The translations under genes were made by a program, and so were the position numbers. 64,000 nucleotides of DNA from Telopea speciosissima. Taxonomy: Eukaryota > Streptophyta > Magnoliopsida > Proteales > Proteaceae. The notes under the pieces were generated by a model. The model did not search any database. It was not told the origin of the DNA and worked only from the letters and a program-made list of their open reading frames with translations. Numbering within the stretch: the first letter of the stretch is position 1; every line of letters begins with the position of its first letter. Below, one piece after another: positions 5,846 through 57,246 of the stretch. The DNA lies in assembly GCF_018873765.1 (NCBI RefSeq), contig NC_057923.1:24957913-25021912 (forward strand), in the 5' to 3' direction.

Positions 5846-6615
5846 CTTCCCACTCTGCAAATATGCGGTAAAGGGCTCTGTATATGTCAAGCATTGCAAT
5901 ACTGAATTCAAAAAACAAGTATTCCCCATATTTTCCAACCCAACACCCTGCAAAATATTCTATTAATTCCTACTCAAAGAGAACCAGAACAAAACAAAAG
6001 AGAATTGAGCTTCCACCAAATTTGATGATCAGGGAAACACAACTAATGAGTAAAGTAAAAAAACTAGAATTACAATGTGGAAAACAAGCCAAGACCGATG
6101 ATAGTATTCCTATGAGAAAACCCACAACAAATACAAGGGATCAACGTAGATAAGCCGAACTTATTGCAGTACTTGAAATACGTTCAATAAACGGTGACAA
6201 CTGGAAATTCACTTTATCGGTGTGGATTACAGTGAATCCCAAAACCCAATTTTTTAACAAAATCAAATTAACGAAAAAACCCAATAGAACAAACTCACGA
6301 TTCTTCGAAGCGTAGTTCCAGAAATAAGCTCTGGATCTAACCCAAATTCAAAAAAATCACCGCCCTCTAATTTCTTCCCCATCGAAGCCAACATAACAGC
6401 CTTTAGGGAGGCAGATCGCTGAGAATCCGAGCTGGGATTCAAAGTCTCGATATGGAAATCTCACTGCCATTACTAAAACTAGTGAAAGACTTCCGAGTGG
6501 GATGAAATTCGATCCTCCTCTGAAACAGAGTTCCATTAGAAGAAGATGAGGCAGAAACAGAGAACCCATCTATGGGTTTCTTCATTTCCGAGGTGCAGAT
6601 CAGGCTTTCTATCAT
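5846..6615 (-). pseudogene. ubiquitin-specific protease, UBP20/23-like, 5' fragment (unit A)
   Basis: Exon 1 runs from ATG 6615 ([17 protein letters not shown]) to 6299 and ends ELISGTTLRRI at a GTGAGT donor. A 351-bp intron follows (5948-6298, ending TTTTGCAG). Exon 2 starts [19 protein letters not shown], the USP catalytic Cys box. The exon 1/exon 2 joint matches the N-terminus of plant UBP20-23 enzymes, which remove ubiquitin from proteins. Exon 1 carries a frameshift around 6470: the frame of the initiator Met differs from the one encoding the LNPSSDSQR and GGDFFE region. Exon 2 is cut after YLQSGK by the gypsy LTR at 5845. Neither the rest of the catalytic domain nor the His box is present. 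A LOB-domain fragment lies just upstream (6705-6818). Confidence 0.75.
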
Positions 6616-6704
6616 TGAAACTGTGAGATTGAATTCAGAAAGGTTTTCAGATTTCTTCTCCTTAGGGAAACAAATTCCAGCCGCCGTAGGGGGTAGTTAC
6701 CAAG

Positions 6705-6818
6705 ACGGAGGTGTTCAGGTCCGGCATTAATGAGATTCATGAGCCCAGCACGGCTATAGAACTTGGCGAGGAAGACAGTGGCATGTGCTTGGGATTCTGG
6801 GTTTTTGATCCATTGCAA
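6705..6818 (-). pseudogene. LOB-domain (class II LBD) exon fragment, unit A
   Basis: Thirty-eight codons read [16 protein letters not shown]... ending [10 protein letters not shown]. This matches the middle of the LOB domain of class II LBD transcription factors (LBD37-42 type). The first codon is TTG (Leu), as expected inside the domain. The Cys block and the GAS-block C-terminal part are absent. The frame runs on through unrelated residues to a stop near 6612, three bases from the UBP ATG. It is therefore a gene fragment placed in what would be the 5' UTR of the UBP gene. The B copy (34556-34669) has the same boundaries. Confidence 0.7.
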
Positions 6819-7110
6819 GCGAAGTTGATGCTACAATTCTCGTTGCAACCTTTGCGGAGAACACAACGAAGACCATGTTAGGTCGAGATTCAAAGTTTGG
6901 GTTTGTAGATTTTTTAGGGTTAATAGCGAATAAATGAGAGCAGGGAAAAAAATCCGAGAGGGAAAAAAAATCCGAGAAAGAATAGAGGAAGAAGACATAG
7001 ATGCATAAATGAATACCTGTGCGGTGGAGTTGCAGGTCAGCGATGGAGGCAACTTCAAATTTGGGGAAGAAGAGGGCAAAGTTGGAATTTTCCACTGAGT
7101 ATTAACAGGA
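6819..7110 (-). other. upstream region of the UBP/LOB chimera
   Basis: No supported gene is seen. The minus strand has short open frames (MENSNFALF...) rich in Phe/Ser that differ in frame between units A and B, so they are probably not coding. Homologous to 34670-34975, which differs by small indels including a second ggtcagcgatgga copy. Confidence 0.4.
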
Positions 7111-8675
7111 TATTAGAAGAGGGCAAAGTTGATATTTAAAATGTATTATTTAACACTGTCCACTCAGGGGGCGTGGCTGTATAATTTAGAAACACAGGGA
7201 GTCGCTCTATATTTAATACAAACCTCAGGGGGTGGCAGTGTAATTTTCCCTTTTTTTTTTTTGGTAGATACTCTGTTGCATTTCAAATCTTCATCTTGCC
7301 ACTCATTCGTCATGGAATTGTAGCCTTACGATGTGGGGCCATCAGGAAAAATGTAATAACCATAATATATAAAATAAAATTATATTGCTTTTTTTTTGTG
7401 GAAACATTATATTGCTTTTCCTAGTCACTATTTTATGCATTGGCCCAAACTCATCGTCAAGCTACTAAAACTCATTTTATGACACGGAAACAAATGCTCA
7501 ATCGATATAATTCTCCGATGTCGTTCTCTGTCGGAAACTTCCATCTTTAAGTGCTTGGTAGATACTATCATTCCCAATGCATTTAGTGAAGGTCGGCCTA
7601 ATATGACTTTGAAGGCGGACACGACCTTCACCACCATGAAATTGACTTTGACAATCTTCTCATAGGGGTGATCTCTAATAGTTAGCGTCATTTCAATGGT
7701 TCCCTAGATTGTCGCTGATGAGCCAAAAAATCCATATGAGTTCGTTCTGTTAGGCTTCAAGCTGTCATCGCCAAACCCAAATTGATGAAAAACATCCTAT
7801 GACATCATATCAATAGATGCACCAATGTCAATCAAGGTCCGATGAACGGGTCGGTTTGATATCAAGGCTTGTATTACCACAACATCATCATGCAGGTAGC
7901 CAACTAATGTTTTCCATGTCGGCTTCGGTGAAGCTGATTACTTGCTCTTTCCGTGCTTCCTTATTGGACACCTCGGCTACTCCCGTAGAAACATAGCTTC
8001 TTTGAGGACAAGCAAACAAAGCTATGTTTGTAATTCAGAAATTACGTATTCCTAAGGTATGTTTATAATTCATGTGACTTTCTTTATGAAATCTCCAACA
8101 CAAAAAGACCAATGAACCGTTTTTGTGATGTATCTTGATGTGATCTCCTAGAAACCAGAAACAGAGCTTAGAGATGTATGTGGCTTTTACTATCATATAT
8201 TTAAAAAAGGAAGTATTCTACTCGCCTCTACATTTTCTATGTGGACTACTCCAATTCATTTGAAGTCGTTTGTCTTGCTAGTCATGCATGAAGTTCTATA
8301 ATATTCATCACGGAAATAGGAAATTACCGTCCCTTGGAGTTAGGGCAATGATTTTTCTCCCAATGTTTGTTACCTCAAATTGCGTTGTCTTAGGGTGTTA
8401 GGCAACTGGGTGATCTTTGTTTCTTCAGCCTGTGATGCCAACTCTGGGAGGAGTTGTTTGTAAACCTGCTGGCTGTGTCTGTATATTCCTTCCCTCCTTT
8501 TTCCTCCTTTCGGAAATAAACTTTCATGCCATATGGAATTCTAGCTCGCACTCAAAACCTTGTGAACATGTACTTATCATCAAGTGCTCACGTGCCTTAG
8601 TAATGTTTTAATTACAATTTGACTCTGCCATATGTCCGAATAACAAAAAGATGATTGAGAAGAATAAAAAATTAA
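7111..8675. repeat. duplicated repeat block, copy 1 left part, with an old gypsy protease fragment
   Basis: This block recurs at 34976-36600, 52350-55150 and, inverted, at 62280-63987. Positions about 7440-8000 on the minus strand hold a gypsy protease-linker remnant (ISNRPVHRTLID, FGFGDDSLKPN, FKVILGRPSLNALG), with an in-frame stop and some active-site changes. The rest (8009-8675) is AT-rich and no gene is seen in it. Confidence 0.75.
7440..8000 (-). pseudogene. gypsy protease-linker fragment, copy 1
   Basis: The minus strand encodes VSNKEARKEQVISFTEA, then a retropepsin-like LID-GAS segment (Ile in place of Thr), then the linker EMTLTIRDHPYEKIVKV and GRPSLNALG, and ends in unrelated LFPCHKMSF. 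It is a 560-bp piece of Pol with no RT, RNase H or integrase beside it. It has diverged from the gypsy element at 1-5845. Confidence 0.7.
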
Positions 8676-8707
8676 GGGAAATTTTCAGCACCCCCCCCTC
8701 CGTTGGA
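8676..8707 (+). repeat. left terminal inverted repeat of the MULE
   Basis: Thirty-two bases starting GGGAAATTTTCAGC. Two differences from the right end (15141-15172), at positions 15 and 25 of the repeat. Confidence 0.95.
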
Positions 8708-9074
8708 CCGTAGAATTAAGGCCAACCCATTAAGTCCCAATATTTCAAGTTGGACCCAAAAACTAACGGACATAGCTGAGAGTTAATTGAGTGGGAGTAA
8801 AATGTCAAAACTACCCTTTATACCAAAAACTTAAAAAACCCATCTTTAACCTAAATTCTTACCGTTGGAAGTTCTAACCACTGAATACCTAGTGCGAGCT
8901 CCATTCATTCCATCTTTGCGACTGGCACACCGGAGAAGCAGCAAGCACAGGTTTAGACCTATGGCACCCGAACTCCATTGATTCCACCTGCTTCCATCTT
9001 CTCCTCCTCTCCATTATACCTTCTTCTCTTTCTCTTGCTTTCTTCTCCTTTCTCCTGCACAACCGTAGAACCCA
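8708..9074. other. MULE subterminal region without a gene
   Basis: No coding region is recognised. It holds a CTT/TCC-rich stretch (8995-9060) just before the minisatellite. Confidence 0.5.
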
Positions 9075-10232
9075 TTGCTGTAGCTGTGAACACCCACCCA
9101 CATAACCTTTGCTCAGCCCCTTGCTGTACCTGTGAACACCCACCCACATAACCCTTGCTCAGTCCCTTGCTCTACCTGAGAGCACCCGCCCACACACACA
9201 CACACTCCTACACACACCATACGACACACAGACACACCAACACAGACACACACCCCCATAGACTCACCCACACACACACACACACCTCTATGCACATTGT
9301 TGCACCCCTCCACACACCATCCCTATTGTACCTGAGAGCACCCACACCACACCCCCCCACACACACACACCATCCCTGTTGTACCTGAGAGCACCCACAC
9401 ACCACACTCCCCCCCCCCCCCCCCACACACACACCCCTGCACATTGTTGAACCACACACACCACTCCACCTGTTGTACCTGAGAGCACCCACACACCAGG
9501 GGCTTTGCCCCTTGCTGTACCTGAGACCACACACACACATACACACCCTGGTCTTGCACCTTGCTGAACCACACACCGCATGCCCCTTGTTGCACTATAC
9601 ACACACACACACACCCCACCTGCTGTACCTGAGAGCACCCACACACAAGGGGCTTTGCCCCTTGTTGTACCTGAGACTACACACACACCATACACACCCT
9701 GGCCTTGCACCTTGCTGAACCACACACCCCCTGCCCCTTGTTGCAGCACACACACACCATACTCACACACACACCCCACTTGCTGTACCTGAGAGCACCC
9801 ACACACCAGGGGCTTTGACCCTTGCTGTACTTGAAACCACACACATACCATACACACACACACACACCCCCCACCTGCTGTACCTGAGAGCACCCACACA
9901 CCAGGGGCAAAGCCCCTTGTTGTACCTGAGACCACACACACATATACACACCTTGGCCTTGCACCTTGCTGAACCACACTCCCCCTGCCCCTTGTTGCAG
10001 CACACACACACACCCCACCTGTTGCACCTGAGAGCACCCACACACCAGGGGGCTTTGCCCCTTGCTGTACTTGAGACCACACACACACACCCCACCTGTT
10101 GTACCTGAGAGCACCCACACACCAGGGGCAAAGCCCCTTGTTGTACCTGAGACCACACACACACATACACACCTTGGCCTTGCACCTTGCTGAACAACAC
10201 TCCCCATGCTCCTTGTTGCACCACACACACAC

Positions 10233-10294
<62 letters not shown>

Positions 10295-10575
10295 ACACAC
10301 ATACCCCTGCACCTTGTTGTAGCACACTGTACACACATACCCCTGCACTTTGCTGCAGCACACCATACACACACACACACACACACAAACACATACACAC
10401 ACACACACCCTGCATCTTGCTGCACCACATCACACACACCCCTGCACCTTGTTGCACCACACACACACACCATACACATACACACACACACCACACACAC
10501 ACACACACAGACCCTGCACCTTGCTGCACCACATCACACACACCCCTGCACCTTGCTGCACCACACACACAAATT
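9075..10575 (+). repeat. CA-rich higher-order minisatellite inside the MULE
   Basis: At the left edge are two clean 47-bp units (ccttgctgtacctgtgaac, then acccacccacataacc). Rightward the unit grows to about 145-165 bp, with alternating gtacctgagagcaccc and gtacctgagaccacac blocks separated by (CA)n runs and ggggctttgcccc stems. It ends in a pure (CA)n run (about 10226-10292) and shorter CA/ctgcaccttgctgcaccac units. Open frames across it, up to 426 codons, translate as Val-Cys-Val-Cys or Thr-His repeats and are not genes. Confidence 0.9.
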
Positions 10576-10626
10576 TGACAACTTGAAATGAAATCCTAAT
10601 ATATTTTGTGTATTTTGTAGATAATA

Positions 10627-11004
10627 ATGTCGACATCAGCTAGTGTTAACAGTACGAATTAAAGGGCATTAAAATTTGAGAACTTGAAATGTGAATGTGG
10701 ATTCCGAGCTGCAATTAGGATTTCAAAGTCCGAGTAAAATCCAAATAGGCTCTACTACAACTGTCCTAGAAAAGGCAAAGGAGACTGTGATTTCTTTGCT
10801 TGGTGCTACCCAAAGGAAGATATGGGAAACCTGCCCATGTCTACAATTATACCAAGAAATAATAACATGACTGATGGGAGTGGAATTCACCCAAATGGAG
10901 TGTGTGTGATGAAGGATGAGATGTCTGCCAAAATATATCTTGTGTGTCTAATTGTACTGATTCTCTGTATGGTGAACTTTATACTGCTGGCTTTTAAAGT
11001 ATGA
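10627..11004 (+). pseudogene. GRF-type zinc finger protein with C-terminal membrane segment, pseudogene in the MULE
   Basis: Read from ATG 10627, the frame encodes MSTSASVNSTN, a GRF-type zinc finger (CECGFRAAIRIS, then NPNRLYYNCP, then CDFFAWCYP) and, at the C-terminus, a hydrophobic helix (YLVCLIVLILCMVNFILLAF) before the stop. Short plant proteins with a GRF finger followed by a membrane segment are a known uncharacterised group. Here two in-frame TAA codons (10660, 10735) interrupt the frame; the second falls inside the finger, where a short residue is expected before NPNR. It lies tail to tail with the transposase. The GRF finger is known to bind single-stranded nucleic acid in other proteins; the role here is unknown. 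Confidence 0.65.
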
Positions 11005-11408
11005 TGTAGCTTTGAAACTTGGTAATTAGAAGGTCATGGTCTGGTCTTGTAAGTTGTTGGTATTAGTAATGAAATGGTATTAGTAATGAAAAGAGAATGG
11101 TGTCTGGCTTTGAGTTGGTTTATTTTCTCAAACTATTTGCTCATGCCAATCTATTAAAGGAACACACAACTATAGAGCTTGTAGACAATCAAGATAATTA
11201 TACTAAGATAATCATATTCATTGGCATAATCATAGCATCCATTTGTTTCATCACCAATATTACAACTTACAAAACATTCAAAACATTGGTTCATCGACTC
11301 CATTTGTTCCATCACAAATATTACACCTTCAAAAGTTCCCAAACATAGTAACAACTTCTCAAATTTCCCTAAAAACACTCCTAACATAAAACAAACTACT
11401 CACTAGAA
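11005..11408. other. MULE interior between convergent genes
   Basis: An AT-rich stretch between the GRF pseudogene and the last transposase exon. A short tandem duplication (tggtattagtaatgaaa, about 11058-11092) is seen. No gene. Confidence 0.5.
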
Positions 11409-14376
11409 CTACTGACCACTACCCTCTGTAGCTAAACTACTAGCAACTTTTGAATTCCTTCTAGCTCTATAGGCTGCCATCTTTGATCTCACTCTCTCTT
11501 GTACACACCCACTTGGAGACCCAGTAGATGCAGTGTTTGATCTGGTTTGCCTTTGGGAGTTACTTGTATCACCCTGACTGCTAGTTCCACTTTCCATTCT
11601 CTACAATAGAAAAAAAAACCTTAATATGAATATAAATATATATAAATATAAATATAAATTTATCTAATGAAATAAAACTAGTTAGATTTATAATAAAAAA
11701 AACCTTACCTCACTACCCACCCTTTTCCTTTTCCCTTTCACTGCACCCCCTTTGCAGGTTTTCTTGTTGTGATCTACTGTATTGCACTTGCTACATCTTA
11801 CTGATGGTGATCTTTTTCTTCTATTTTTGTTGGGTCTACCAGGTCTCCTTCTCACAAGGGGGGGCTGCACGATACCATACAAACTAGTCTCAGATAATCC
11901 AACTATATCTGGTTGTGCATGGATCATCTCTCCATGTGCAAGTTGATATCTCTGCACAGTATAGTATGGATCACAATAGTCATCAATGCTGTAGTTCTTC
12001 ATAGAAATAGCATGGGCTGCATGCTTACAAGGTAACGTAATTGCTTCCCATACTTTACATGTACAAGTTCTCTCATCCAACTTAACCACAATAACTTTAT
12101 TTCCATCATTAACCACAAACTCAAACAATCCTGCTGCATGTGTAGTGCATCCCCTTGCTGCCCTTTCAATAGAATCCAATTTCTTCTTAATAGCTGATGT
12201 AACTGTACCCATTAAACTGCATGCAGTAGCATACCTTTGCTGAAACCTTGTCATCAACTGCACCCTAAGTTGGTCAATCAATGTCACTATTGGCCTGTCT
12301 CTATAAGCTGCAATCCACTGGTTGAATGATTCGGTCATGTTGTTAGTCACATGGTCACTCTTGGCACCATGATCAAAGGCATGTCTTGACTAGCTTGCAG
12401 GTGGGTTTCTCATCAACCAGTCATGAGCTTCTACATTTATATCTTTCAGCTCCCCCATAGCTTTCTGGAAATCAACAACAGTGGATGCTTTAGCAGCAGT
12501 CCAGAAGGCAGTCCTCAACATTGCTCCAGGATGAACACCCCTAAAGTTGGCATATAAATGCCTACAACAATGTCTCTGATTACATCGAGGGAATTGTTGT
12601 TGAATTGAATCAATTAGACCATATAAATGATTGATAATATATATTTTAATTGAAGCATATAAATGTAAGAAAATAACTAACAACTATTAAATTCACCACA
12701 TTTACTAACCTTCTGTTTGTCAGACATAAAGGTCAAGTGGGGTATGAAGTCTCTTTGATTGTAGAGCAATGTGTAAGCAGTCAAGGAACCACATCCAACT
12801 GTCTTTCCTCTCAGCCTCTACTACTCCTAAGGCAACTAGAAATAAACCATTATTTCCATCTAATGATATTATTGCCAAAAAAATACCTCCATACTTTTCC
12901 TTTAAGTGGCAACCATCCAGTCCTAGAAATGGCCTGCGACCTTATACAAAACCTTTTATACATGCTTTAAAACACACAAACACCCTCTGAAACACTGGAT
13001 TTTGATTCATATCATGTCTATCCATCATTTGAATCTTGAGTACTGGTCCTGGGTTATACTGATCAATCATATCAAGATACGCTGGCAACTATGCAAATTG
13101 TTTAGTATGGTTGCCTTCAATCTCTTCTTTGGCAATCATTCTTGCCCTATACAGCTGTTGTTTGCTTGGTTGGAGTCCATACTGTACCTTCATCATTGCT
13201 TCCATGCTTTTAATAGTTATTGTAGGATCTGCCCTGATGTGGGGACCAAGTTTACCAGCTATCCATCTAGAGTTAGCTGCTGCCAATTTTGTCTTTCTTC
13301 CACTACAAGTATGTTTGTTTGCAAATGATTTTACAATAAAAGTCTTGCCATCAAGTGCAAGAGAAGCATGTATCCTCCAAGGGCAACCATCACTTGCATA
13401 AATCTTAGTTACTCTAGTCTTCTCATTTTTTAGCCTATAAAGTTCAAACCCCTCTTGAATTGCATAGTTCTTCAAGTGGGTTCTATATTCATCCACAGAA
13501 TCAAAAGCCATCCCTTCATCCAACTCCAATATTCCCCCACCACTGGATCCACTTTTTTTGGAAAATTGTGAATGGTATTCCTCAGAATCATAATCTGAAA
13601 TACCATCCCTATCTGACTCATTTTCATCTTTATTTTCCTCAGGAACATAATCTGATTCATCATCTCCTTCCTGATCCCCTTTCTGACCAACATTCTTTGT
13701 ATTCTCATCACCTACTACTTCTTCAGATTCATTATCACCATCATCTGAAGAATCTGAAATTCCATCACTTTCTTTATCCTGATCATCCTCACTAAGTTCC
13801 CATTTATCATCATCACCTGATTCATTCAATTCCACAGGTTCATACTCAATAGATCCTGCAAGACTGGAAGGTGTCCTACTTGATACACTAGGGCCTGTAC
13901 CTCCCCCTCTGTTTACTGTCTGCTTTGGCAGTCTACTACTACTAGGAACAGTAGCACTTTGCTGTCTCACCCTTGTAGATTCACCAGCCACATATCTTTA
14001 CCTTCTTGTATTAGTGGTCCTACCAATCAGCTCACGTTCAAACCCATTAATCTTATAAGATTTGCTTCTTTGCTCAGGCTCACTCTCTTGCACATTGGAG
14101 ACATACAGTCTGATTACCTTGTCAGCCTCAAAGATGTCAAACTGTTGCATCACAGATTGATCATCCCACATCTCTACATCCTCATTCCCACCAGGTAGTA
14201 TAGTTTTGCATTTGAAAGTCACCTCTACCATCTGGTATATGACCTAGGACTATGTTGTAGATGTCATGTACCATATCAATATATCCATACCTATCTCTAT
14301 CAACTATCTTATGCAAAATATTCCCATCATAATAGTAATAAATTGTGAATAAATCCATTCTGCACGCATTACACAA
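11409..14376 (-). pseudogene. MULE transposase (MuDR type), broken
   Basis: The order on the minus strand is: a PB1-like N-terminal region (about 14376-13998, FKCKTILPGG and VIRLYVSNVQESEP); a long acidic linker (13991-13560); the MuDR DNA-binding domain (GCPWRIHASLALDG, HTCSGR, about 13500-13250); the catalytic MULE domain (GLDGCHLKEKYGG, about 12920; AERKDSWMWFLDCL, about 12800); RHLYANFR (about 12550); a SWIM zinc finger (CTCKVWEAITLPCKHAAHA, about 12060-12010); a CCHC knuckle (CSKCNTVDHNKKTC, about 11790-11745); and a Ser/Arg-rich final exon ending at 11409. A GTTAGT donor at 12709 begins a short intron inside SDKQK/GLID (about 12621-12709), whose acceptor lacks AG. Stops lie after KQFA (about 13086), at FV-stop-GRRP (about 12945) and near 12390. 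It would cut and paste the element; this copy cannot. Confidence 0.85.
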
Positions 14377-14414
14377 ATAGGCACATATTTTTAATCAAAC
14401 ACTCCATAAATAAG

Positions 14415-14890
14415 AGCAGAAAGGGGTGTGTGTGTCTACTATATGCAACAGGGCAGAAGGAGGGGTGTGTGATAGGTACAACAGAGGCAGAAGGGGGGTG
14501 TGGGACTATGTGCTATGTGCAACAGGCAGAAGGGGGGGTGTGGTAGTGTGTGTGCAACAGGGCAGGAGGGCGTGTGTGTGCTACGTACAATAGAGGCAGA
14601 AGGGTGGGGTGCGTGGGACTGTGTGGTATGTACAATAGGGGCAGAAGGGGGGCGTGTGGGAGTGTGTGCTATGTGCAATAGGGCAGAAGGGGGTGTGTGC
14701 TATGCGCAGTAAGGGGCAATGGGGTTGGGATTTGTGTGGAGGGGTGTGTGCTAGGTGCAACAAAGGTAGAAGGGGGTGTGGGGTGTGTGTGCTATGTGCA
14801 GTAGGGGGTGTGTGCTATGCACAATAAGGGATGGTGTGTGCTATGCACAGTAAGGGATGGTGTGTTAGGGCTCGGGATGGGTGTGTGCGT
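14415..14890 (-). repeat. GT-rich minisatellite near the right end of the MULE
   Basis: About a dozen imperfect units of 35-60 bp of the form gtgtgtgctatgtgcaatag-ggcagaagggg. Read on the minus strand, the unit (ccccttctgc, then ttgcacatagcacacac) resembles the left minisatellite unit (ccccttgttgcactatacacacac), so the two tracts are inverted relative to each other. Frames across it are repeat artefacts. Confidence 0.85.
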
Positions 14891-15140
14891 GTGTCTGCAA
14901 GTCTGATCATGGTTATTAATGGCAATACATATGATGCATTTACAGGATCCAACAAATAGAGGTTAGGGCAACAAAAATTGCATTTACAAATGAAGATTAG
15001 GGAAAAAAAAATTTGATTTTGAGGGCCCTGGTTTTGTGAGAACTTACATTTGGAGTGAGGTCGTTTCTTCAGAGCTTCGTCAGGGTCCTTTGGTCACCGG
15101 AATGTGTGCCAAGACGTGGAGCAGAGTTGCAGAGGTGAAC
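14891..15140. other. MULE right subterminal region
   Basis: No gene is seen. In the minus orientation this lies upstream of the transposase and would hold its promoter. Confidence 0.4.
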
Positions 15141-15172
15141 TCCAACGAAGGGGGGGGCGCTGAAAATTTCCC
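15141..15172 (-). repeat. right terminal inverted repeat of the MULE
   Basis: Reverse complement of the left end except for two bases; ends in GAAAATTTCCC, followed by the target duplication aaaaattaa. Confidence 0.95.
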
Positions 15173-16066
15173 AAAAATTAAAAAAGAGCTAAACTGCTTT
15201 TGTTAAGCCGGGCCTAAGCCCAGCCATAATATGTCCCTAACACCATGTTAGAAAGAAGTCCCAATCCTACTTTTTTTGCTAATGAAGCAGTACAACAAAT
15301 CCAAAATTAGCAAATTTTATACAACCAAGTGCTTAGGTAGTAGATGTTCATTTAAACTCACGGGCAAGAGATCTCTACTTGGTTCCATGGTCTCTACACA
15401 AGTGTCTGGGCCAATGGAGGAGCACGCCTGGGTATCAAGCCAAGGGGCAGAGGCATCATTTTATGGTGCCCTGTGAGATGGCGTAGGAAACACCACCAAG
15501 TAGAGATCTTTTTCCCTAAACTCAATTACCAATTGTCTAATAACTCATAAGCAGGGTGTTAATCACATTAAAATATTTTTTTAAAAATCCCATACAACTA
15601 ATTTATTCCATTGATGTAGTAGCCTCAATTATATTTTCAATTAATATTAGAATACAATTCTACATTATATTAACACATTATTTTAGCATACGACACTAGT
15701 TATTTATTAATTACATCCCCATGCTAAGCACAGGGCAGGTATATTGTTATGTAATGTGCTTCGGTTAAGCTAAAATTTTGATTGGAAAAGGTAGAGATGA
15801 ATCTATCCAAAAAATTCTTGAAAACCTTAAATAATTTCAATATGAAATTTAAGTTTAACATTTAAAATGATATAGCCAATATTGTTACGTTTTTCATGCA
15901 TATACGTTGAAACAAATGAATCAACCAAAAAAAAATATAAGAAAGGATATTTGAAGTATTAATGTAAACTGAATAGATATTATATATAGATACAAAGATT
16001 TGAGATAGATTTCGATAAGGAAAGACTTTCAACTTTAAGAGTCAATTATCATGCATAGAAATATTT
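15173..16066. repeat. duplicated repeat block, copy 1 middle part
   Basis: Homologous to 36600-36909 plus 46084-46664, to 55150-56031 and, inverted, to 61369-62280. It contains a 14-bp inverted pair, gatctctacttggt (about 15369) and accaagtagagatc (about 15495), enclosing a GC-richer core. AT-rich otherwise. No coding region. Confidence 0.75.
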
Positions 16067-16081
16067 GTAAGAATCTCAATT

Positions 16082-16720
16082 TTTTTTTTCTTTTGGTAAA
16101 ATGAAACTCTTTCAGATAGAAAATGTGTTACACAAGGTTTAAAAAACATCTAGGTTTAGAAACCAAGGAGTGGAATATGGCCCTATCTTACATGTCATAG
16201 ACGAGACCTTCCAGGCTAAGGAATGGACACAAGCATTAATATCTCTAGAAACGAAGCTGGAAGTCTAACTAACAAAACAAGAAGATATGTTAAACATATG
16301 GCAAAAAATTTCATGCACAGCCCTGTATGTATACAACTTGTATTAAATACAGTCAGATTGGCATTTATGCCAATCTAAAATGTCATAAAAACCCCTAGCC
16401 CACCTATTTGATGGGAGAATCTCCCGTGTACGAATACCTTCTCCTAAACATATTCTTCACACTTGGTAAAGCCACTGTGGGCATTGGAGCGTCAGGCTTG
16501 ACAAACTGGATTGTCACATATGCTTTATTGGGATGTTTGCCACCTTTTTTTTTCTTTCCATTCTTCACCGAATGATTGTACTTCTTCACTATCATGTGGA
16601 ACTTCAGTCTTGTAACCGCTGCCCATAACCATGCTAATCGTTCGGTTATAGAGGTTGTGATGAGCATCATTGCCATGCAGAGTTATGGATGAAGTAAAAC
16701 TGTAACCGCTGGCCATAGCT
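16082..16720 (-). mobile_element. retroposed transcript with poly(A) and 15-bp target duplications, copy 1
   Basis: The segment is flanked by gtaagaatctcaatt (16067-16081) and gtaaggatctcaatt (16721-16735). On the minus strand it starts four bases before an ATG and ends in an A-rich tail (seen as poly-T at 16081). This is the structure left by LINE-type target-primed reverse transcription. Copy 4 (61354-61368) has a single version of the target and no insert. The insert includes the small ORF described separately, then about 320 bp of 3' sequence ending GAAAGAGTTTCATTTTACC before the A tail, which also resembles a LINE tail. Confidence 0.8.
16404..16716 (-). pseudogene. unknown small protein of the retroposed transcript, copy 1, frameshifted
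   Basis: The frame starts MASGYSFTSSITLHGND and runs in frame to FGEEWKEKK, then shifts at the A-run near 16550 into GGKHPNKAYVTIQFVKPD, ending SYTGDSPIK. The intact version is at 56374-56709. I do not recognise the family. Confidence 0.5.
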
Positions 16721-46679: not shown

Positions 46680-47324
46680 TTTTTTTTTGGTAAAAAGAAA
46701 CTCTTTCAGATAGAAGACAAGTGTTACACAAGGTTTCAAAAACATCTAGGTTTAGAAACCAAGGAGTGGAATATGGCCCTATCTTATATGTCATAGACGA
46801 GACCTTCCATGCTAAGGAATGGACACAAGTGTTAATATCTCTAGAAACAAAGCTGGAAGTCTAGCTAACAAAACAAGAAGATATATTAAACATATGGCAA
46901 AAATTTTCATGCACGGCCCTGTATGTATACAACTTGCATTAAATACAGTCAGATTGGCATTTATGCCAATCTAAAATGACATAAAAACCCCTAGCCCACC
47001 TATTTGATGGAGTTGATGGGAGAATCTCCCGTGTACGAATACCTTCTCCTAAACATATTCTTCACACTTGGTAAAGCCACTGTGGGCATTGGAGCATCGG
47101 ACTTGACAAACTGGATTGTCACATATGCTTCACTGGGATGTTTGCCACCTTTTTTTTCTTTCCATTCTTCACCGAATGATTGTACTTCTTCACTACCATG
47201 CGGAACTTCAGTCTCGTAGCAGCTGACCATAACCATGCTAATCGTTCAGTTATAGAGGGTGTGATGAGCATCAATGCCAGGCAGAGTTATGGATGAAGTA
47301 AAACTGTAACCACTGGCCATAGCT
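46680..47324 (-). mobile_element. retroposed transcript, copy 2
   Basis: Same insert as 16082-16720, with target duplications gtaagaatctcaatt (46665-46679) and gtaaggatctcaatt (47325-47339). The small ORF (about 47000-47310) has a frame disruption between its start and VMVSCYETEV, but its C-terminal half is open. Confidence 0.8.
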
Positions 47325-47339
47325 GTAAGGATCTCAATT

Positions 47340-47697
47340 CATGGATTAACAAAGGAGTCATATATTGAAATAAACATATGTATAAGATAAAGAATAAAGC
47401 TTGGAAGGAACCCAAGGTCGATTTTCTAGTCAATACAACCCCTAATTGCACTTTTTTGTTTTTGTTTTTGGAAATTTTCATTGATGAGGCCTAATCAAAT
47501 GTGGGGTCCTCTTGATGGCTTATCCTAGGGTCCCAAGACATTTCCCTATTAATGTGATCATTGTTTTGAGGTAAAATGTGTTCTAGATGACTTTGCTCTC
47601 CCCTTGAGATTAGTACATTAATGTGTCTATTGAGATCCTTGCATGCTCATAAAATTTTGTGATTACATGAGAATCCCATCGCTTTCGTCGCCACTAA
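47340..47697. repeat. copy 2 right part and fused LTR tail (deletion junction)
   Basis: To 47578 the sequence follows 16736-16976 of unit A. From tgttctagatgac (about 47577) it follows 28693-28814, the last 120 bp of the unit A copia 3' LTR, including the CTAACA end. Confidence 0.85.
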
Positions 47698-50165
47698 CAA
47701 ATTATTGTATCTGTCTCATGAGCACATTTCTATGAGGATCTTCCCAACCAATGACCATCCTTTGTTTTCAGAAAGTATGTGATATATCGCTGATGAGTCA
47801 TAAATCGACAAGCCAATCAAAGGTGGACATGTGGCATGCCAAACTGACCATCGTAATCGAGTCCAATCACAAGAATCAGTCCGGTTGGGTATCTATATAA
47901 ACTGAACCCTGAGTCGATAGATCTCTAAAAATGGGCCTATACTACTGGGCTGAAAGGCGAGCCCGCTCCAACAAGGTTGATACGACCTGATCATAAAGGA
48001 CGACACAAAATATATTAAGTACAAACCAACCCGAGCATATGTACAGTTGACTTCATTAACCATCCCCGTGTATCCCAGGAATGGCGCCTAACAGCTCCGA
48101 AAATGATGCACCATGGATACTCCCACGGCGGCGTAACACGCAAGGAATCTTATCCATATATCCGACTAAGGCTCCATGCAGCCTTGAATCACACCTGGGA
48201 CTCCTCCCCCATTATGACACTCCATCACCGCCAGGACTCTAAACCCACAGTGCCTAAAAATACCTAGGTAAACTATACCGTTGATTATCTAAATTAATTT
48301 TTTATTATCTGTTGCTAAGAGCGCTGACTTAAGCATCGGAGTGTCCAACGCCGGCTCAGCGTGGTCACTCTTGTACTAACAGTTTATTGTGCAGGACCGA
48401 TCCGTGGAGGTGAATACCGACCCGAGGTTGACCACCAGTTCTTAGCGCAACAGATTGGTGCCGTTTGTGGGAATGACTCTAGAATACCCACGAGAACTCT
48501 CAAAGGCTGAAGGACAAGACGTTGTTCCCACAATCATCTCTGACGCTCCTCAGTAAGAAGACAACCGGGCACCTCGCCGGACTACCCGAGCAGCCCATGG
48601 AGGTGCTCTCCCGCAGCGCCAAGCTTCATGACACGTGGTAGCCGCTGCAGGAACTGCAGCATCCAAACCAAGCACACCTGCAATAGGTGCACAACCTAAT
48701 GGAGGAACACTGCCGCCACCACCACCTCTCCCGATCACATAACCAATAACTCTCGATCTGAGCGCTCTGGCCACAGTCAGATAGATCAATGACCTGCAAC
48801 AACAGCTACAGCTACTGCAGTAGGGCGCTTTATTCAAGGATAACCTAAGATAAATACAGCCCCTGAGAATGCCAGCTCCTGCACCGATTCTCGCGCCTAC
48901 AGCAACACTGGTTCCAACCCTTCCTCCACTACCTCCGATACTGCCAACTCGTGCCTGAGAATTCAAGCACGTTGTTCGAAAGACCGAACAAGCTGCTAGA
49001 GAAACCTGGAGCCGAGCAGGATCGCCCCAACCTACTCAGAGAATCCCACCCTTGCAAGAGTGGTCCGAACGGGTGACTTACCTACTAGGGCCCGTGTTGA
49101 CCCAACAATTATCCCGAAATGATCCGTAACTATGTGGAAAATGGATTGTTTGCGGACCGATGCCAGCCAAATGAGGCAGGAAAGCACCCTGAGGTCTCGC
49201 TTGTAGGAAACCCGAGTCAAGAACTCAAGGACAGATCGAGACAACAGTCGACGAGATAATGGTCTTGAAAACCAAAATAGCCTAACAGCGGGAGCAGGCC
49301 TGAGCCGACCCGTCGAAAATGAGGTTGATCGTAAGCTCAGGGAGATTGACTAGAAGCTGAAGGCTCTAGAGAAGGGAACCGTGTCTGAGAACTTCTCCCA
49401 GCCCGGACTACATCCATTCACAGTCGAAATAATGAGGGCGAAACTTCCGAAGAACTTCAACCCCCAAGCTTTGAAGCATACGATGGGAAATCCCACCCAA
49501 ACGACCACATTAATTATTTCAACGCGATGATGACTGTCTATGGGGGCTTAGAAGTCATATAATGTCGAGCCTTCCCGACCTCGCTCAATGGGGTGGCAGC
49601 CCTATGGTTTTCGAAGCTAAAAAGTCAAATTTGATAACGAGCTTTTCAGAGCTTGCTCGCACGTTCGTGACTGGCTACCAAAGTAGTGTGAAGCAAAAGA
49701 AGATAACAACGAATCTTCTGGTTGTAAAGCAAAGGGCGGATGAACCAATTCGGGACTATAACACCCGCTTCAACAGTGAATCCCTAGAGGTAAAAGACCT
49801 AGACGACGGGATGGCCTTCAATGTCCTACACAATGGCGTCACCAACAGGGAGTTGGTCCAGTCTCTAGCCCTAAAGCTGGCAAACAATGATTGAACTTCT
49901 GGATCGGTGCTATTGGTATGCCAACATGTTAGATATCATCAAAGCCCGGAAGACAATCGATAACAAAGGGTCGAAGAAGAAGAGATCGAGTGACAAAAAA
50001 GAAAAGAAGGACGGGGAAAAGAAGCAAAGGTCGGATCGACACCAGGAAAGGGACTGAAGCCCCAACTATACCCCACTGACCACCTTGGGGACGAACATCC
50101 TCATGGCAGGTAATGGTGATGACAGGAAATCCATAAGTCGTTATGATATCTTTCTCAGTCCTAAT
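47698..50165 (+). mobile_element. gypsy 5' fragment (LTR plus gag), unit B
   Basis: Homologous to 28815-31248, with the same LTR end (gcaacagattggtgccgtttg, about 48447) and the same right junction. The gag frames (48478-48966 region, 49490-49894) are more broken than in unit A. Confidence 0.8.
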
Positions 50166-50882: not shown

Positions 50883-51835
50883 TTATTTAGAGGAACTGTA
50901 TAAGTACTGAATTCCCATAATATCGTCGCTATGGAGATCTCTTTTTGTAACCCCAGGTGATATGCTAGGGTACATGATAGCTTCTTGAACTGAGGAGTGC
51001 CCAAGCCCTAGAAGGTGTCCAATTTCATGCACAGCAACTGATTCTAAGTCCATCATATTTTGTCCTGGATTAGTACTCCAATTCTCATCAGCATCATAAT
51101 GGAACCTTCCATCAGTTGGTGCAAAGGCATGCGCTAGGGTCGACCCTTGTCCATCAAATGCATAGCCATCTCCATGGTCTCCGCGATGGAATCCAATGTC
51201 TATGTCAGCAGTGGTACCTTCAGCTACTTCTTTGAATGTAAAATGGCTTATGCCCATCTTGCGAAAGCTTTTGAGCAGACAGACTCCAAGTCCTGAACTG
51301 CACTTATTTGGGCACTGGAATGGAATCGGTAGGTGAGATTGCGCTTGGAATCTGGCCATTTTTCCATATTTGAAAAGAAACAAAAATGGGAGACTGTGTG
51401 GAGTGTATTGGAGCCCATCATGGTGTCTCTTCATCCCTGATCGCATTGAACTCGTTCCATTGATGATGTCTGGAACACCACATCTTGGCACCATCAGTTG
51501 CTTCACCGTTTGTGAATCTAAGGTCCCTGTGACCTTCAGATTGTAATTGATCTGATAGGTCTTTACCGCGGCCTCTAATTGGTCATCGAACTCGTCGTCA
51601 TTGACATGGGTGAGGCTGTTGTTTAATTGAGGATAACTCAGGTAACAAATTTCTTGAGATACTGTTTGAGCTCATAAATCCCTTTCACCATCTGCCCCTT
51701 ATGATATCCTTCCAAAGGCTGGAGGGACTTGAAAGGTTGCTTACCTGGTCTGGATAGAACCATTTGAGGCAAAATGAAGGGAAAAATGAGGATAAAAAAG
51801 CCCAAAAAGAAAGAAAATTTAGGGAAAATGTTCAT
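50883..51835 (-). pseudogene. matrix metalloproteinase, decayed duplicate
   Basis: Homologous over its whole length to the gene at 31974-32930. Three lesions break the frame: a one-base deletion after KKF (about 51646), a one-base insertion near 51414 and a four-base deletion near 51250. The signal peptide start (MNIFPKFSFFLGFF), cysteine switch (PRCGVPD) and zinc site (HEIGHLLGLGHS, about 51030) remain, but no single frame joins them. A methionine at 51506 could start a short protein with the catalytic motif; I treat this as a pseudogene. Confidence 0.88.
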
Positions 51836-52345
51836 CTTTCTAAGCTAAGGTTTTTCAAGAAAAAAAAATTTGTTGGTATTGTAAGGTGACAATGAAGCTC
51901 TTATTGGTGTTGTGGTGGCATGCATTCTCCTCCCACAAGTATTTATTAGCATCCTACCTAGGTCAAATTGCCCGTTTGAGGGAGCACGCATCAAGAAAGA
52001 TTCAATATATCGTGTCTTCCATGTTGAAGAGGTTCTTACGAAATTGAGACTTTAAATGTGAAATTAAGACCTTGGGTACTATTAATATGAAATGTCGGGT
52101 AAAGGCCACGCTCCCCACAAAGAAGGCTGACACTTTTTATATTAATCACTTCCCTTTATTTTTGTACAGTGACACGGACACACTTGTTCAGACTTTTGGT
52201 TTTAATCAATCTATGCCAATCCATAAGTCTCTCTCTCTCATGTTTTCTAACGTACTATTTGGTAAGAACCCACGCCAAAACCTGTTGACCACTGGGTGAT
52301 TTGTTGACCCCGGCTAGCCATGGTCGTCCATGATACAAGAAGCAC
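51836..52345. other. matrixin upstream region and B/C boundary
   Basis: Homology with the unit A promoter region extends to about 52095. 52096-52345 has no counterpart in the window and no gene is seen. Confidence 0.5.
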
Positions 52346-52544
52346 AAAGTGGTCATTGGACCTTACTCTGTTGCATTTCAAATCTTCGTCTTGCCACTCA
52401 TTCATCTTGGAATTAGGATGTGGGGTCTTCAGGAAATGATGTAATTATCAAATAATTTATTAAATGATATTATATTGTTTTTTTCTTTTGTGGAATATTA
52501 TATTACTTTTCCTAGTCACTATTTTATGCATTGGCCCAAAACTC

Positions 52545-53485
52545 TTTAGTGTTTTATCTAATCCTCTATTGTTGTTCTTATAGTTTCTCTCATCTTCCTT
52601 GATTAACATACTGTTACAGTTCTTGCAATAGGAGTTTCCTTTTCTAAGTCTGAAACTTCTGCCTATGATTTCAGAGAATTTAACTATCAAATTAGGCTGG
52701 ATTTTGCATATGTGATTCCCTTCCCCTTCTACTCCAATCGAACCAAATTTTAGCACCATTGCACTGATAGATTGAGAGCTATGTTAGTTTCCTTTACTTT
52801 CTATTTTCTGTCTATGTGTGTTTCTCTTAATTGGGATAAGGCTGAGTTGTATTTGTTGTTGTGTGTTTCCCTTAATCTAACCATCAACTTGCTTTGATAT
52901 TTTTACCACATACTCACCCCATTAGGACCTTTAATATATGTAAGTTTCAGCCCCATCAGATTAATGGTTTGCAATTTCTAATTACATTTAGTTTCTGCCA
53001 TATTCATAGTTTTCTGGTTCACTTACGATTCTGGTTTCTCATAGGTTTGCTAGTTTTTGTTACTTTAGCCTAGCTTACTTCATCAGTGTTTGATAGGGTG
53101 CCCATGCGTTTCAGTATCCAACATTTTTTTGTAGGGCCAGAAAATGAAAACTGGTCATAGATATGTATCTACTAGCTGCATATGCTTTCTTGTTTGGGTT
53201 TAGCAAAGGAAACTCCTATTGCAAGAACTGTTGAAGATGTTCCTGTTTGTAAACATTACCTAGATTTTATTCACATAAGACGCATGAGAATACAACAACA
53301 ACTCAGCCTTATCCCAACTAAATGGGGTCAGCTACGTGGATCCTTGGCCCCCAATCAGCTCTATTCGAATATGTACAAATATTTCCAAATAGAAATGTTG
53401 TTAAGACGATTGCTAATATGATGGAGCATCTTATGAATAATTGTTAATTGTTAGATATTAGAGCTTAGTAGTCATGCGCCACAAG
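52545..53485. other. insert with SINE-like pieces
   Basis: The plus strand at about 53291-53343 reads acaacaacaactcagcc, ttatcccaactaaatgggg and tcagctacgtggatcc, the 3' region characteristic of plant Au-type SINEs. A shorter inverted piece of it is at about 52836-52875. A 27-bp sequence around aaactcctattgcaagaact also occurs twice in opposite orientations (about 52613-52642 and 53205-53232). No target duplication was found. Confidence 0.6.
53291..53345 (+). repeat. Au-type SINE 3' end fragment
   Basis: ctcagccttatcccaac followed by taaatggggtcagctacgtg; recognised from memory of the family's 3' consensus. Confidence 0.6.
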
Positions 53486-53499
53486 CTACTAAAACTCAT

Positions 53500-54040
53500 T
53501 TTATGACAGGGAAACTAATGCACAATCAATATAATTCTCCGATGTCGTTCTCTGTTGGAAACTTCCATCTTTAAGGGCTTTGTAGACACTATCGCTCCTA
53601 GCACATTTAGTGAAGGTCGGCCTAATTTGACTTTGAAGGAGGACACAACCTTCGCCACCATGAAATTGACCTTGACAGTCTTCTCACAAGGGTGATCTCC
53701 GACAGTTAGCGTCATTTCAATGGTTCCTTAGATTGTCGCTAATGAGCCAGAAAAACCATATAAATTCGTTATGTTAGGCTTCAGGCTATCATCTCCGAAC
53801 CCGAATTGATGAAAAACATCATATGACATCATATCGACAGATGCACCTGTGTCAATCAAGATCCGATGAACGGGTCGGTTTGATATCAAAGCTTGTATTA
53901 CCACAACATCATCATGCAGCCAACTAATGTTTTCCATGTCGGCTTCGGTGAAGTTGATTACTTGCTCTTTACATGCTTCCTTATTGGACACGCCACCTAC
54001 TCCCGTAGAAACATAGCTTCTTTGAGGACAAGCAAACAAA
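53500..54040 (-). pseudogene. gypsy protease-linker fragment, copy 3
   Basis: The best-preserved copy: EQVINFTEADMENISWL, then the active site LIDTGASVDMMS, FGFGDDSLKPN, and the linker TLTVGDHPCEKTVKV and GRPSLNVLG. A stop after SLATI interrupts it. No other pol domain adjoins. Confidence 0.75.
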
Positions 54041-54053
54041 GCTACGTTTGTAA

Positions 54054-54412
54054 TGTTGGGTTTTGGGCTACATTAATGCACATTGATTATTGGGCCCATG
54101 AATAAGTTAGCCACTCCAGGTTTTAAGTCAGGGGTATTTTTGACGTAACACATTGTGGGAGTGTGTCAGGGTCTGGTTGAATATTATATATTCAACCCAA
54201 GGTCCCCACAGCCGTCACTTGTCATTTTACTATTTTCCTGCTCACGGAAGATTCAAGAGAAAGGCTGTGGAAGGCTATTGGGAAGCTCTAAAAGCATGGG
54301 GATCGACTTCAGCTATCAACCAAAAAGGTATGGCTTTATCCATTGTTTATTCATTGTGTTCTAAATCCGTATGGGATCGTCATATGTTTGATTAGTGATT
54401 CAAATCACAACA
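54054..54412. mobile_element. solo LTR with 5-bp target duplication
   Basis: A 359-bp sequence, TGTTGGGTTTTGG to CACAACA, flanked by tgtaa on both sides (54049-54053, 54413-54417). Copies 1 and 2 have the empty site with a single tgtaa (about 8031 and 35870). No internal domain is present, so it is a solo LTR or a very small LTR element. Orientation is not determined. Confidence 0.88.
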
Positions 54413-54417
54413 TGTAA

Positions 54418-56031
54418 TTCAGAAATTACGTACTTCTAAGTTATGTTTATAATTCATGTGACATTTCTTTATGAAATCTCCAACAAAAAAAAACCAGTGA
54501 ACCTTTTTTGTGATGTATCTTGATGTGATCTCCTAGAAACAGAGCTTAGACATGTATGTGGCTTTTACTATCATATATTTAAAAAAAGGAAGTATTCTAC
54601 TTGCCTCTACATTTCCTATGTGGACCACTCCGATTCATTTGAAGTCTTTCGTCTTGCCAGTCATGCTTGAAGTTCTATAATTATTCATCACGGAAATAGG
54701 AACTTACAGTCTCTTGAATTTAGGGCAATAATTTTTCTCCCATGTTTGTTGCCTCAAATTGCATTGTCTTAGGGTGACAGGCAACTAGGTGTTCTTTGTT
54801 TCTTCAGCCTGTGATGCCAACTCTGGGAGGAGTTGTTTGTAAACCTGGCTGTGTCTGTATATTCCATCCCTCCTTTTTCGTCCTTTTGGCAGTAAAGTGA
54901 TATTATCTGTAAAAAAAAATAAAAAAATAAAAAAAAAAGAGAAAAATAAAGAGGAAGAAAAAAACTCATGCCACTTTTGTTAGCCTTTTTTCATGCCATG
55001 AGGAATTCTATCTCAAGCTCGCACTCAAAACCTTGTGAACATGTACTTATCATCAAGTTCTCACATGCCTCAGTAATGTTTTAATTACAATTTGACTCTG
55101 CCATGTGTTTGAATAACAAAAAGATGATTGAGAAGAATAAAAAATTTAAAAAGGAGCTAATACTGCTTTTGTTAAGCCGGGCCAAGCCCAGCCATAATAT
55201 GTCCCTAACACAATGTTAGAAACAAGTCCCAATCCTACTTTGTTTGCTAATGAAGCACTGCAACAAATCCAAAATTAGCAAAATTTCTAGAGCCATGTGC
55301 TTAGGTAGTAGATGTTCATTTAAACTCATGGGCAAGAGATCTCTACTTGGTTGCATGGTCTCTACATGAGTGTCTGGGCCAATGGAGGAGCACGCCTGAG
55401 TATCTACCTAGGGGGCAGAGGCGTCATTTCATGGTGTCCTGTGAGAGGGCGTAGGAAACACCACCAAGTAGAGATCTTTTTCCCTAAGCCCAATAATCAA
55501 TTGTCTAATAACTCATAAGCAGTGTGTTAATCACATTAAAATATTTTTAAAAAATCAAAAATCCCATACAACTAATTGATTCCATTGATATTGTAGCCTC
55601 AATTATATTTTCACTTAATATTAGATACAATTCTACATTATATTAACACACTATTTTAGCATATGACACTAGTACTTCATTAATTACATCCCCATGCTAA
55701 GCACAGGGTTGGTATATTATTATGTAATATGTTTCGGTTAAGCTAAAACTTTTGTTGGAAAAGGTAGAGATGAATCTATCCAAAAAATTGTTGAAAACCT
55801 TAAATAATTTCAATATAAAATTTAAGTTTAACATTTAAAATGATATAGCCAATATTGTTACATTTTTCATGTATATACATTGAAACAAATGAATCAACCA
55901 AAAAAAAAATATTATAAAGGATATTTGAAGTAGCAGAATAGGGATTATATATAGATACAAAAATTTAAGATAGATTTAGATAAGGAAAGACTTTCCATTT
56001 TAAGAGTCAATTATCATGCACAGAAATATTT
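54418..56031. repeat. duplicated repeat block, copy 3 middle part
   Basis: Homologous to 8035-8675 plus 15173-16066, with neither the MULE nor the copia insertion. It therefore shows both empty sites: about 55135 (aaaaaatttaaaaa) and about 55456 (taggaaacaccacc). No gene. Confidence 0.8.
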
Positions 56032-56046
56032 GTAAGAATCTCAATT

Positions 56047-56713
56047 TTTAATTTTTTATTTTTGTAAAATGAAACTCTTTCAGATAGAAGACATGTGTTA
56101 CACAAGATTTCAAAAACATCTAGGTTTAGAAACCAAGGAGTGGAATATGGCCCTATCTTACATGTCATAGATGAGACCTTCCAGGCTAAGGAATGGACAC
56201 AAGCGTTAATATCTTTAGAAACGAAGCTGGAAGTCTAGCTAACAAAACAAGAAGATATATTAAACATATGGAAAAAGTTTTCATGCACGGCCCTGTACGT
56301 ACACAACTTGCATTAAATGGAGTCAGATTGACATTTATGCCAATCTAAAATGTAATAAAAACCCCTAGCCCACCTATTTGATGGAGTTGATGGGAGAATC
56401 TCCCATGTACGAATACCTTCCCCTCAACATATTCTTCACACTTGGTAAAGTCACTGTAGGCGGAGCGTCGGGCTTGACAAACTGGATTGGCACATATGCT
56501 TCACTGGGATGTTTGCCACCTTTCTTTTCTTTCCATTCTTCACCAAATGACTGTATTTCTTCACTGCCATGCGGAACTTCAGTTTTGTAACCACTACCCA
56601 TAATCGGAGATTGATTAGTATCCATGCTAATCGTTCGGTTATAGAGGGTGTGATGAGCATCATTGCCATGCAGAGTTATGGATGAAGTAAAACTGTAACC
56701 ACTGGCCATAGCT
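56047..56713 (-). mobile_element. retroposed transcript, copy 3
   Basis: Same insert as 16082-16720. Target duplications gtaagaatctcaatt (56032-56046) and ataaggatctcaatt (56714-56728). The A tail is interrupted (tttttaattttttatttttg on the plus strand). Carries the intact 111-codon ORF. Confidence 0.8.
56374..56709 (-). CDS. unknown 111-residue protein, intact copy in the retroposed transcript
   Basis: An open frame from MASGYSFTSSITLHGND to DSPINSIK, using the first ATG four bases from the 5' end of the insert. Copies 1 and 2 lack seven residues found here (around DTNQSPI) and are frameshifted. The protein is hydrophilic, with a Lys/Glu/Gly stretch (FGEEWKEKKGGKHPSE) and no signal peptide, membrane helix or known catalytic motif that I can see. 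I do not recognise a family. It may derive from a host mRNA or from a LINE-like element; expression is unknown. Confidence 0.4.
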   Translation of the reverse strand: MASGYSFTSSITLHGNDAHHTLYNRTISMDTNQSPIMGSGYKTEVPHGSEEIQSFGEEWKEKKGGKHPSEAYVPIQFVKPDAPPTVTLPSVKNMLRGRYSYMGDSPINSIK

Positions 56714-56728
56714 ATAAGGATCTCAATT

Positions 56729-57246
56729 CATGGATTAACAAAGGAGTCGTATATTGAAACAAACATATATATAAGATAAAGAATAAAGCTTGGAGGAACC
56801 CAAGGTTGATTGTCTAATCAATAGAACCCCTAATTGCACTTTTTTGTTTTTTGTTTTTTTTTTTTGGAAATTTTCCTTGATGAGGCCTTGGTCCTCCAGA
56901 TGGCTTACCCTAGGCTCCCAAGACATTTCCCTATTAATGTGATCATTGTTTTGAGGAAAAATGGGTGGAAGTTAAATATCTAATTATATAATTTGCTTCT
57001 TTCAGAGCATGTAAAGATTTAAATTGATGTCCACTATTTCATTCCTAAAATCCGTAAAATGAGATGGAGGCAAGTTATATTGGTAATTACTACTATTTGT
57101 AAGACTATTAAGTAGGCATAAAATGGAATGGAAAGATTATGATTTTTTTTTTTTTGGAAAAAAAGATGGGTTTGTCTGTTTGTAACCTTCTCGAACTTTG
57201 TTTGTCCTCAAACAAAATGTATTTTTAGATGGATTGAAGGGTACAA
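56729..57246. repeat. duplicated repeat block, copy 3 right part
   Basis: Homologous to 16736-17114 and then directly to 19310-19490, showing the empty site of the small LTR element at about 57102 (atttgtaagactatt). No gene. Confidence 0.8.

Follow-up and report, generated by a model that had tools for sequence, protein, structure and literature searches.

This report concerns a window of 64,000 nucleotides (64 kb) from Telopea speciosissima (NC_057923.1, positions 24,957,913 to 25,021,912), in which a matrixin (MMP) gene lies among nested transposons. Self-comparison revealed two long series of blocks, A (5846-33233) and B (33697-52096; positions are those of the window), which are collinear and in direct orientation. 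We conclude that a segment of more than 18 kb was very probably duplicated once, head to tail, and that the two copies were then differently disrupted.

Self-BLAST of the window (E<=1e-10, reciprocal rows and rows <150 bp removed) yielded 41 repeat pairs, and the same search on dinucleotide-shuffled windows yielded none in 10 of 10 shuffles. A second, looser self-search was also run on the window. These results bear out the tandem segmental duplication that had been proposed in an earlier note made by reading the sequence, and the edges given there at 33250, 33684 and 52095 lie within 20 bp of the ends of aligned blocks. The series is made up of 5846-8675 and 33697-36599 (89.9% identity with gaps), 15173-15491 and 36591-36909 (94.0%), 15487-16977 and 46084-47581 (94.3%), 28693-33166 and 47578-52070 (91.2%), and 33192-33233 and 52055-52096 (92.9%). 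Common to A and B are, in this order, a LOB/UBP-like block, a repeat that we call X, the end of the 3' long terminal repeat (LTR) of a copia element (copia1) and the sequence to its right, a gag fragment of gypsy type, and finally the MMP gene, which lies on the minus strand, together with the upstream flank of this gene. Without a Mutator-like element (MULE) the A segment comprises ~20.9 kb, and without the MULE and a small LTR element ~18.7 kb. Outside the gene, 7,405 of 7,985 aligned sites are identical (92.7%, gaps excluded), the gag block alone reaching 88.8% (1,565/1,762). The pair thus falls within the range of a segmental duplication in size and identity (1-200 kb, >90%), as well as in content, with collinear copies of the MMP gene and flank, the LOB fragment and transposon pieces.

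The relative order of several events can be read from the structure. Since B retains the tail of the copia1 3' LTR together with the same flank, the copia1 insertion is older than the duplication; the tail in B differs from the 3' LTR of A at 4 of 117 sites and from the 5' LTR of A at 14 of 116. The MULE in A and a second copia element (copia2) in B are both younger than the duplication, because the other copy has an uninterrupted site for each, that of copia2 lying in A near 15487-15491. The shared old and unshared young insertions claimed in the earlier note were thereby recovered. B is without a stretch matching ~11.7 kb of A (16975-28694), its ends being joined with at most 1 shared base, and this junction between X and the LTR tail reads as a deletion by end joining. 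The element identities are as follows: the MULE combines a MuDR-type transposase (DNA-binding domain, E 6.4e-13; SWIM, E 7.5e-6; the match to the catalytic domain itself is below cut-off, 18.2 versus 27.6 bits) with terminal inverted repeats and a 9-bp target duplication, as is characteristic of Mutator-like elements, and both copia1 and copia2 have the RVT_2 domain, LTR pair and 5-bp target duplication of Copia LTR retrotransposons, the copia1 target duplication, ATTAT, depending on how the LTR ends are read.

Divergence between A and B was determined block by block as gap-free K. The values were 0.077 for the LOB/UBP block, 0.054, 0.047, 0.062, 0.047 and 0.050 for the X blocks, 0.035 for the copia1 LTR tail, 0.084 for 28819-29329, 0.123 for the gag block, which is the most diverged, 0.088 for 31096-31976, 0.036 for the MMP region and 0.050 for 32940-33166. 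Total substitution rates were unequal among 11 of 12 blocks (LTR tail left out; p = 1.6e-15), and transversion rates in the 8 non-gene blocks (LTR tail left out; 201/7,985 sites) did not differ significantly (chi2 12.2, 7 degrees of freedom, p = 0.09). Because of the latter result, the data fit a single duplication followed by methylation-type decay of uneven strength, with the gene under constraint. Of the 142 transitions in the gag block, 92 are located in CG/CHG sites; the uneven rate of this block is therefore ascribed to methylation-type decay, its likely cause, rather than to age. Several events were rejected as the principal explanation of the rate differences, as total rates differ strongly and transversion rates do not significantly. 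Small conversion tracts between A and B are possible; an X stretch at 7301-7449 differs at 2 of 149 sites.

The locus also permits a test of whether the divergence of LTR pairs agrees with the structural order. For copia2 it does when compared to pooled sequence: its LTRs differ by 4.7% (80/1,691 sites), less than the pooled non-gene A/B divergence of 7.3% (580/7,985; p = 1.3e-4). For copia1 agreement is not clear. Its LTRs are, as expected, more diverged than X alone (6.3% versus 4.9%), but not significantly so (p = 0.08), and the expected order is significant only in the 116-bp tail (13/116 versus 4/117, p = 0.025).

A number of observations weigh against a single duplication with this order of events. 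The copia2 LTRs are not below X alone in A versus B (157/3,205, 4.9%; p = 0.83), the copia1 LTR pair (76/1,215) is not above the pooled A/B divergence (p = 0.23), and the copia1 LTRs even have fewer transversions than the pooled sites (17/1,215 versus 201/7,985; p = 0.015). This conflict would require LTR-LTR conversion or near-simultaneous events. In addition, inclusion of the MMP coding block makes the homogeneity of transversions borderline (p = 0.058), and the junction between A and B contains an unexplained spacer. Finally, the edge of the duplication on the left of A is not visible. Position 5846, taken as that edge in the earlier note, follows directly upon a gypsy LTR whose outer end lies at 5845, and does not represent a breakpoint; as the limit of A coincides with this LTR end, the duplication may extend to the left beyond the window. 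In our judgement the clock is too uneven here, and the structural order is to be preferred.

Under a single duplication, X and the MMP gene were already in place, together with copia1 and the gag fragment, as the shared junctions show, and the duplicated segment would have run from the LOB/UBP gene-fragment block through the degenerate repeat X, the copia element and the gag fragment to the MMP gene and its upstream flank. After duplication, the MULE would have inserted into A, copia2 into B and, presumably, the gypsy element next to the left limit of A; B would have lost the counterpart of A 16975-28694 by end joining with at most 1 bp in common, and its MMP copy would have gained frameshifts, the A copy staying open. 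With respect to the origin of the tandem, crossing-over between X copies is disfavored because B begins with the LOB/UBP block, which precedes X, and not with X. Double-strand-break repair or template switching is probably the better candidate.

The MMP gene of A encodes a matrixin domain and a peptidoglycan-binding-like domain. M10A proteases are defined by an HExxHxxGxxH zinc site and a PRCGxPD cysteine switch, and the A frame has both (HEIGHLLGLGH and PRCGVPD); among solved chains its best sequence match is matrilysin (E 3.5e-37). Judged from what is known of the family, its product is most likely an ordinary secreted zinc protease, predicted to be kept inactive by the cysteine switch. The B copy contains three frameshifting indels and is a pseudogene. 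When B was read in the frame of A (315/318 codons), nonsynonymous divergence (dN) was 0.029 and synonymous divergence (dS) 0.063, a ratio of 0.46 (p = 0.047, pN versus pS), which is weak evidence for constraint shared over both branches.

The earlier note further described a third copy of the middle part, C, and a fourth, inverted one, D. X does occur in both, and D is inverted; however, the two consist only of X and short flanking sequence, and among the self-search matches listed, none links either of them to the MMP gene or the LOB/UBP block. Four X copies were aligned over six of the eight X blocks (7647-8034 and 16082-16977, which have no D counterpart, were left out; 1,783 gap-free columns). 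Of 33 grouping sites, 22 united A with B, 5 A with C and 6 A with D (p = 9e-5 versus one third), and K of X rose from 0.049 (A-B) through 0.079 (A-C) to 0.105 (A-D). By this comparison, C and D would have split off before A and B, as older relatives with X and short pieces of one flank. Such a flank, R, occurs at the right end of A and, as a second part, between B and C, and both parts stand in the same order in D between X pieces. This arrangement suggests that the right end of A and the B/C spacer could be two parts of one ancestral flank, and D the leftover of an older unit; B would therefore keep the original right neighbor. The C-specific insert at 52541-53481 contains a 43-bp inverted repeat (52605-52647/53200-53241), and a stretch near 53296 may resemble plant Au-type short interspersed elements. 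Within D, a piece of X recurs in inverted orientation at 62717-63365 (88% over 249 positions in self-BLAST, 77% over 667 in the looser search); no such inverted pair occurs within A, B or C among the matches listed.

The same features bear on the alternatives to a single duplication. A and B might be diverged haplotypes or homeologues of one locus that were laid end to end in assembly, and the large private insertions in each copy and the large deletion in B are of a kind that haplotypes can show. However, A and B are adjacent in a sequence that contains no N (G+C 41%), the non-gene divergence is high for alleles of one plant, and the spacer opens with an R-like stretch that is also found in D, as native sequence should. 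We therefore regard a misassembly as unlikely. Far less probable still, indeed hardly conceivable, is that A and B arose by separate nested insertions of transposons with no segmental duplication at all. Much of the sequence is transposon-derived and X occurs in two further copies, but A and B both contain the MMP gene with its flank, as well as the LOB/UBP block and the junction of the copia1 LTR with its flank. These shared flanks exclude for A and B what the earlier note had named as the observation that would overturn its proposal; they do not do so for C and D, for which no LOB/UBP or MMP match is listed and which may be dispersed copies.

Compatible with a single A/B duplication is an older local array of units (X ... 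MMP - R) that gave rise to all four copies, with A/B as the latest round and D as an inverted unit from which the middle is gone. This is a possibility that we entertain tentatively. R adjoins X in C (52245-52336, followed by 52364) and in D, where both R parts keep their order; for each R match the score exceeds the highest obtained in 300 shuffles, and the divergence of X is graded as given above. On the other hand, the listed matches of C and D include neither MMP nor LOB/UBP, R might itself be mobile as a small repeat, and the inverted X piece inside D is left unexplained. It is somewhat more doubtful that a single MMP locus went through at least two rounds of local duplication, A/B being preceded by an older array from which C would survive as X alone and D as an inverted unit that lacks its middle. 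If so, each round ended with the loss of the extra MMP copy, and the gene was repeatedly duplicated and pruned at the same spot.

Table 1. Features of the window (positions in nucleotides from its first letter; K, divergence)
Feature	Position	Strand	Remarks
Left gypsy element	1..5845	-	other end beyond window; RVT_1 E 5.2e-33; RNase H E 3.9e-22
LOB/UBP-like gene-fragment block, A	5846..7268	-	= 33697-35104, Kimura two-parameter (K2P) divergence 0.077
Repeat X, left part, A	7269..8675	+	= B 35105-36599; with gypsy protease-like fragment coded on - strand
MULE, private to A	8676..15172	-	terminal inverted repeats GGGAAATTTTCAGC..; 9-bp target duplication AAAAATTAA; empty site in B ~36591-36599
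Repeat X, right part, A	15173..17114	+	15173-16977 = B 36591-36909 + 46084-47581
Small non-autonomous LTR element, A	17112..19303	-	LTRs ~750-790 bp; LTR pair K 0.049; empty site in C 57095-57103
copia1 LTR retrotransposon, A	19938..28818	+	LTR pair K 0.066; RVT_2 E 2.9e-25; target duplication read as ATTAT
gypsy gag/LTR-end fragment, common to A and B	29330..31095	+	PF03732 Retrotrans_gag E 5.4e-8 at 30630-30998 in A
MMP (matrixin) gene, A	31977..32930	-	318-aa open frame, then TAA stop; PF00413 E 8.1e-51
R flank, right end of A	33214..33272	+	= D 63563-63501, 50.9 bits; best of 300 shuffles 32.8
J, A/B junction spacer, 463 bp	33234..33696		first ~39 bp R-like; rest without significant match in window among those listed
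LOB/UBP-like block, B	33697..35104	-	PF03195 E 7.9e-6 at 34466-34729
Repeat X, left stretch, B	35105..36909	+	from self-comparison with A
copia2 LTR retrotransposon, private to B	36910..46083	+	LTR pair K 0.049; RVT_2 E 6.7e-37; 5-bp target duplication GAAAC
Repeat X, right stretch, B	46084..47577	+	cut by apparent B deletion
copia1 3' LTR remnant, B	47578..47703	+	apparently joined to X by deletion; last ~120 bp of LTR, then same right flank as A
MMP pseudogene, B	50886..51835	-	three frameshifting indels; PF00413 E 2.1e-42 on longest frame
R flank, second part, between B and C	52245..52336	+	= D 63462-63371, 86.0 bits; best of 300 shuffles 31.0
C, third copy of X only	52364..57246	+	C-specific inserts ~52541-53481 and 54055-54412
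D, fourth copy of X only	61313..63987	-	inverted, rearranged, R inside; from self-searches, K and site counts

The unit order described in the earlier note was recovered in part by Pfam searches: LOB in B, gypsy gag in A and matrixin in A and B were matched, and X was found in its place. Taken with the matches to matrixin, MuDR, RVT_1, RVT_2 and gag models, the LOB match indicates that the window is most likely plant nuclear DNA. LOB is a plant family, and its domain (PF03195) was matched in one B frame at profile positions 6-54 (49 of 99 positions; the scan covered the LOB frame of B, not that of A). The match is a fragment and lacks the complete LOB domain of an LBD gene. Four frames from 6266-6696 and 34117-34526 gave no Pfam match to UBP/UCH; the UBP label, which would concern a part outside the UCH domain, was not confirmed. 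The block was also considered as cargo of a Helitron or MULE and rejected, since no inverted-repeat partner of its ends is present among the self-BLAST matches listed; its ends do not appear to fit the Helitron motif. X in A versus B has K 0.054 in 7269-8034 and 0.047 in 8035-8673, and its right part in A corresponds as a whole to C 55141-57103 and over 15173-16081 to D 62273-61354. The label of a protease-fragment repeat is backed by the alignment of X at 61-62% with the region of the gypsy element that corresponds to its protease (2507-2975; looser self-search), but a Pfam match was obtained only weakly in a C frame (PF13975, E 0.007, below cut-off) and not in the A frame. A supposed retroposed transcript found no support: Pfam scans of two frames, 16407-16682 and 56377-56727, gave no match. 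The putative copia half of a gypsy/copia composite (31450-31653 in A, 50350-50511 in B) had no significant Pfam match.

Several further features of the mobile elements were observed. Large CA-rich minisatellites lie inside both MULE ends (9021-10571 and 14409-14900), with many overlapping periods of up to 405 bp. One end also weakly resembles the other when inverted (60-63%), as though a single repeat had expanded into both subterminal regions. The site of the small LTR element falls inside the stretch deleted from B; the element carries a Met-tRNA-type primer-site motif at 18556 (minus strand) and a 224-amino-acid frame (17963-18634, minus strand) with no Pfam match, possibly gag-like or captured sequence. 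The gypsy element on the left has the outer end of its 5' LTR (TGATAAACCC on the minus strand) at 5845, and the LTR start and a primer-site-like region were read from the sequence; a GC-rich minisatellite with periods of 15-72 bp is located at 5507-5731 within this apparent LTR. The gag fragment common to A and B aligns to this element at ~61% in inverted orientation in the looser self-search. Between C and D, Copia gag and pre-integrase frames occur at 58168-59779 (minus strand), with no flanking LTR pair among the self-search matches listed. A tRNA scan found none, and Rfam at gathering thresholds gave no match.

Plant MMPs of the M10A type have a matrixin domain, a peptidoglycan-binding-like prodomain, a cysteine switch and the HExxHxxGxxH motif, as found in A, whose copy showed no distinctive feature; unlike working members, the B copy is broken. 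No description of a plant MMP tandem pair such as this was found in the literature, as judged from titles and the openings of abstracts. Segmental duplications of the kind as such are described in plants. In grapevine, they are defined by 1-200 kb and >90% identity, which A/B fits, and make up 17% of the genome sequence; the recent set there requires >94% identity and >=10 kb, and the LOB/UBP, 28819-29329, gag and 31096-31976 blocks of A/B are below 94% (PMC3179966). At the maize P1-wr/y-gene region, tandem gene copies likewise occur with nested LTR elements in the cluster, and a duplicate of the neighboring gene with 91.2% identity was judged a frameshifted pseudogene, similar to the MMP copy of B; unlike the two main copies here at ~93%, that region has eleven nearly perfect 12-kb repeats (PMC2686159). 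A 22.7-kb segmental duplication with adjacent copies in maize centromere 10 is also comparable: nested and partial retrotransposons were duplicated locally, LTR elements later entered one copy, LTR pairs were used for dating and end-joining was proposed. That case is, however, much younger (~121,000 years), centromeric and has 5 shared nucleotides at its junction, whereas A/B has an unexplained junction spacer and an included gene (PMC4806543). Taken together, A/B is another case of the known plant segmental duplications with later private insertions, and hence of ordinary genome turnover. The event is of an ordinary kind but unusually legible in this window, which provides a compact self-dating example with elements that predate and elements that postdate the duplication, empty sites in A as well as in B, and a gene that is open in one copy and broken in the other.

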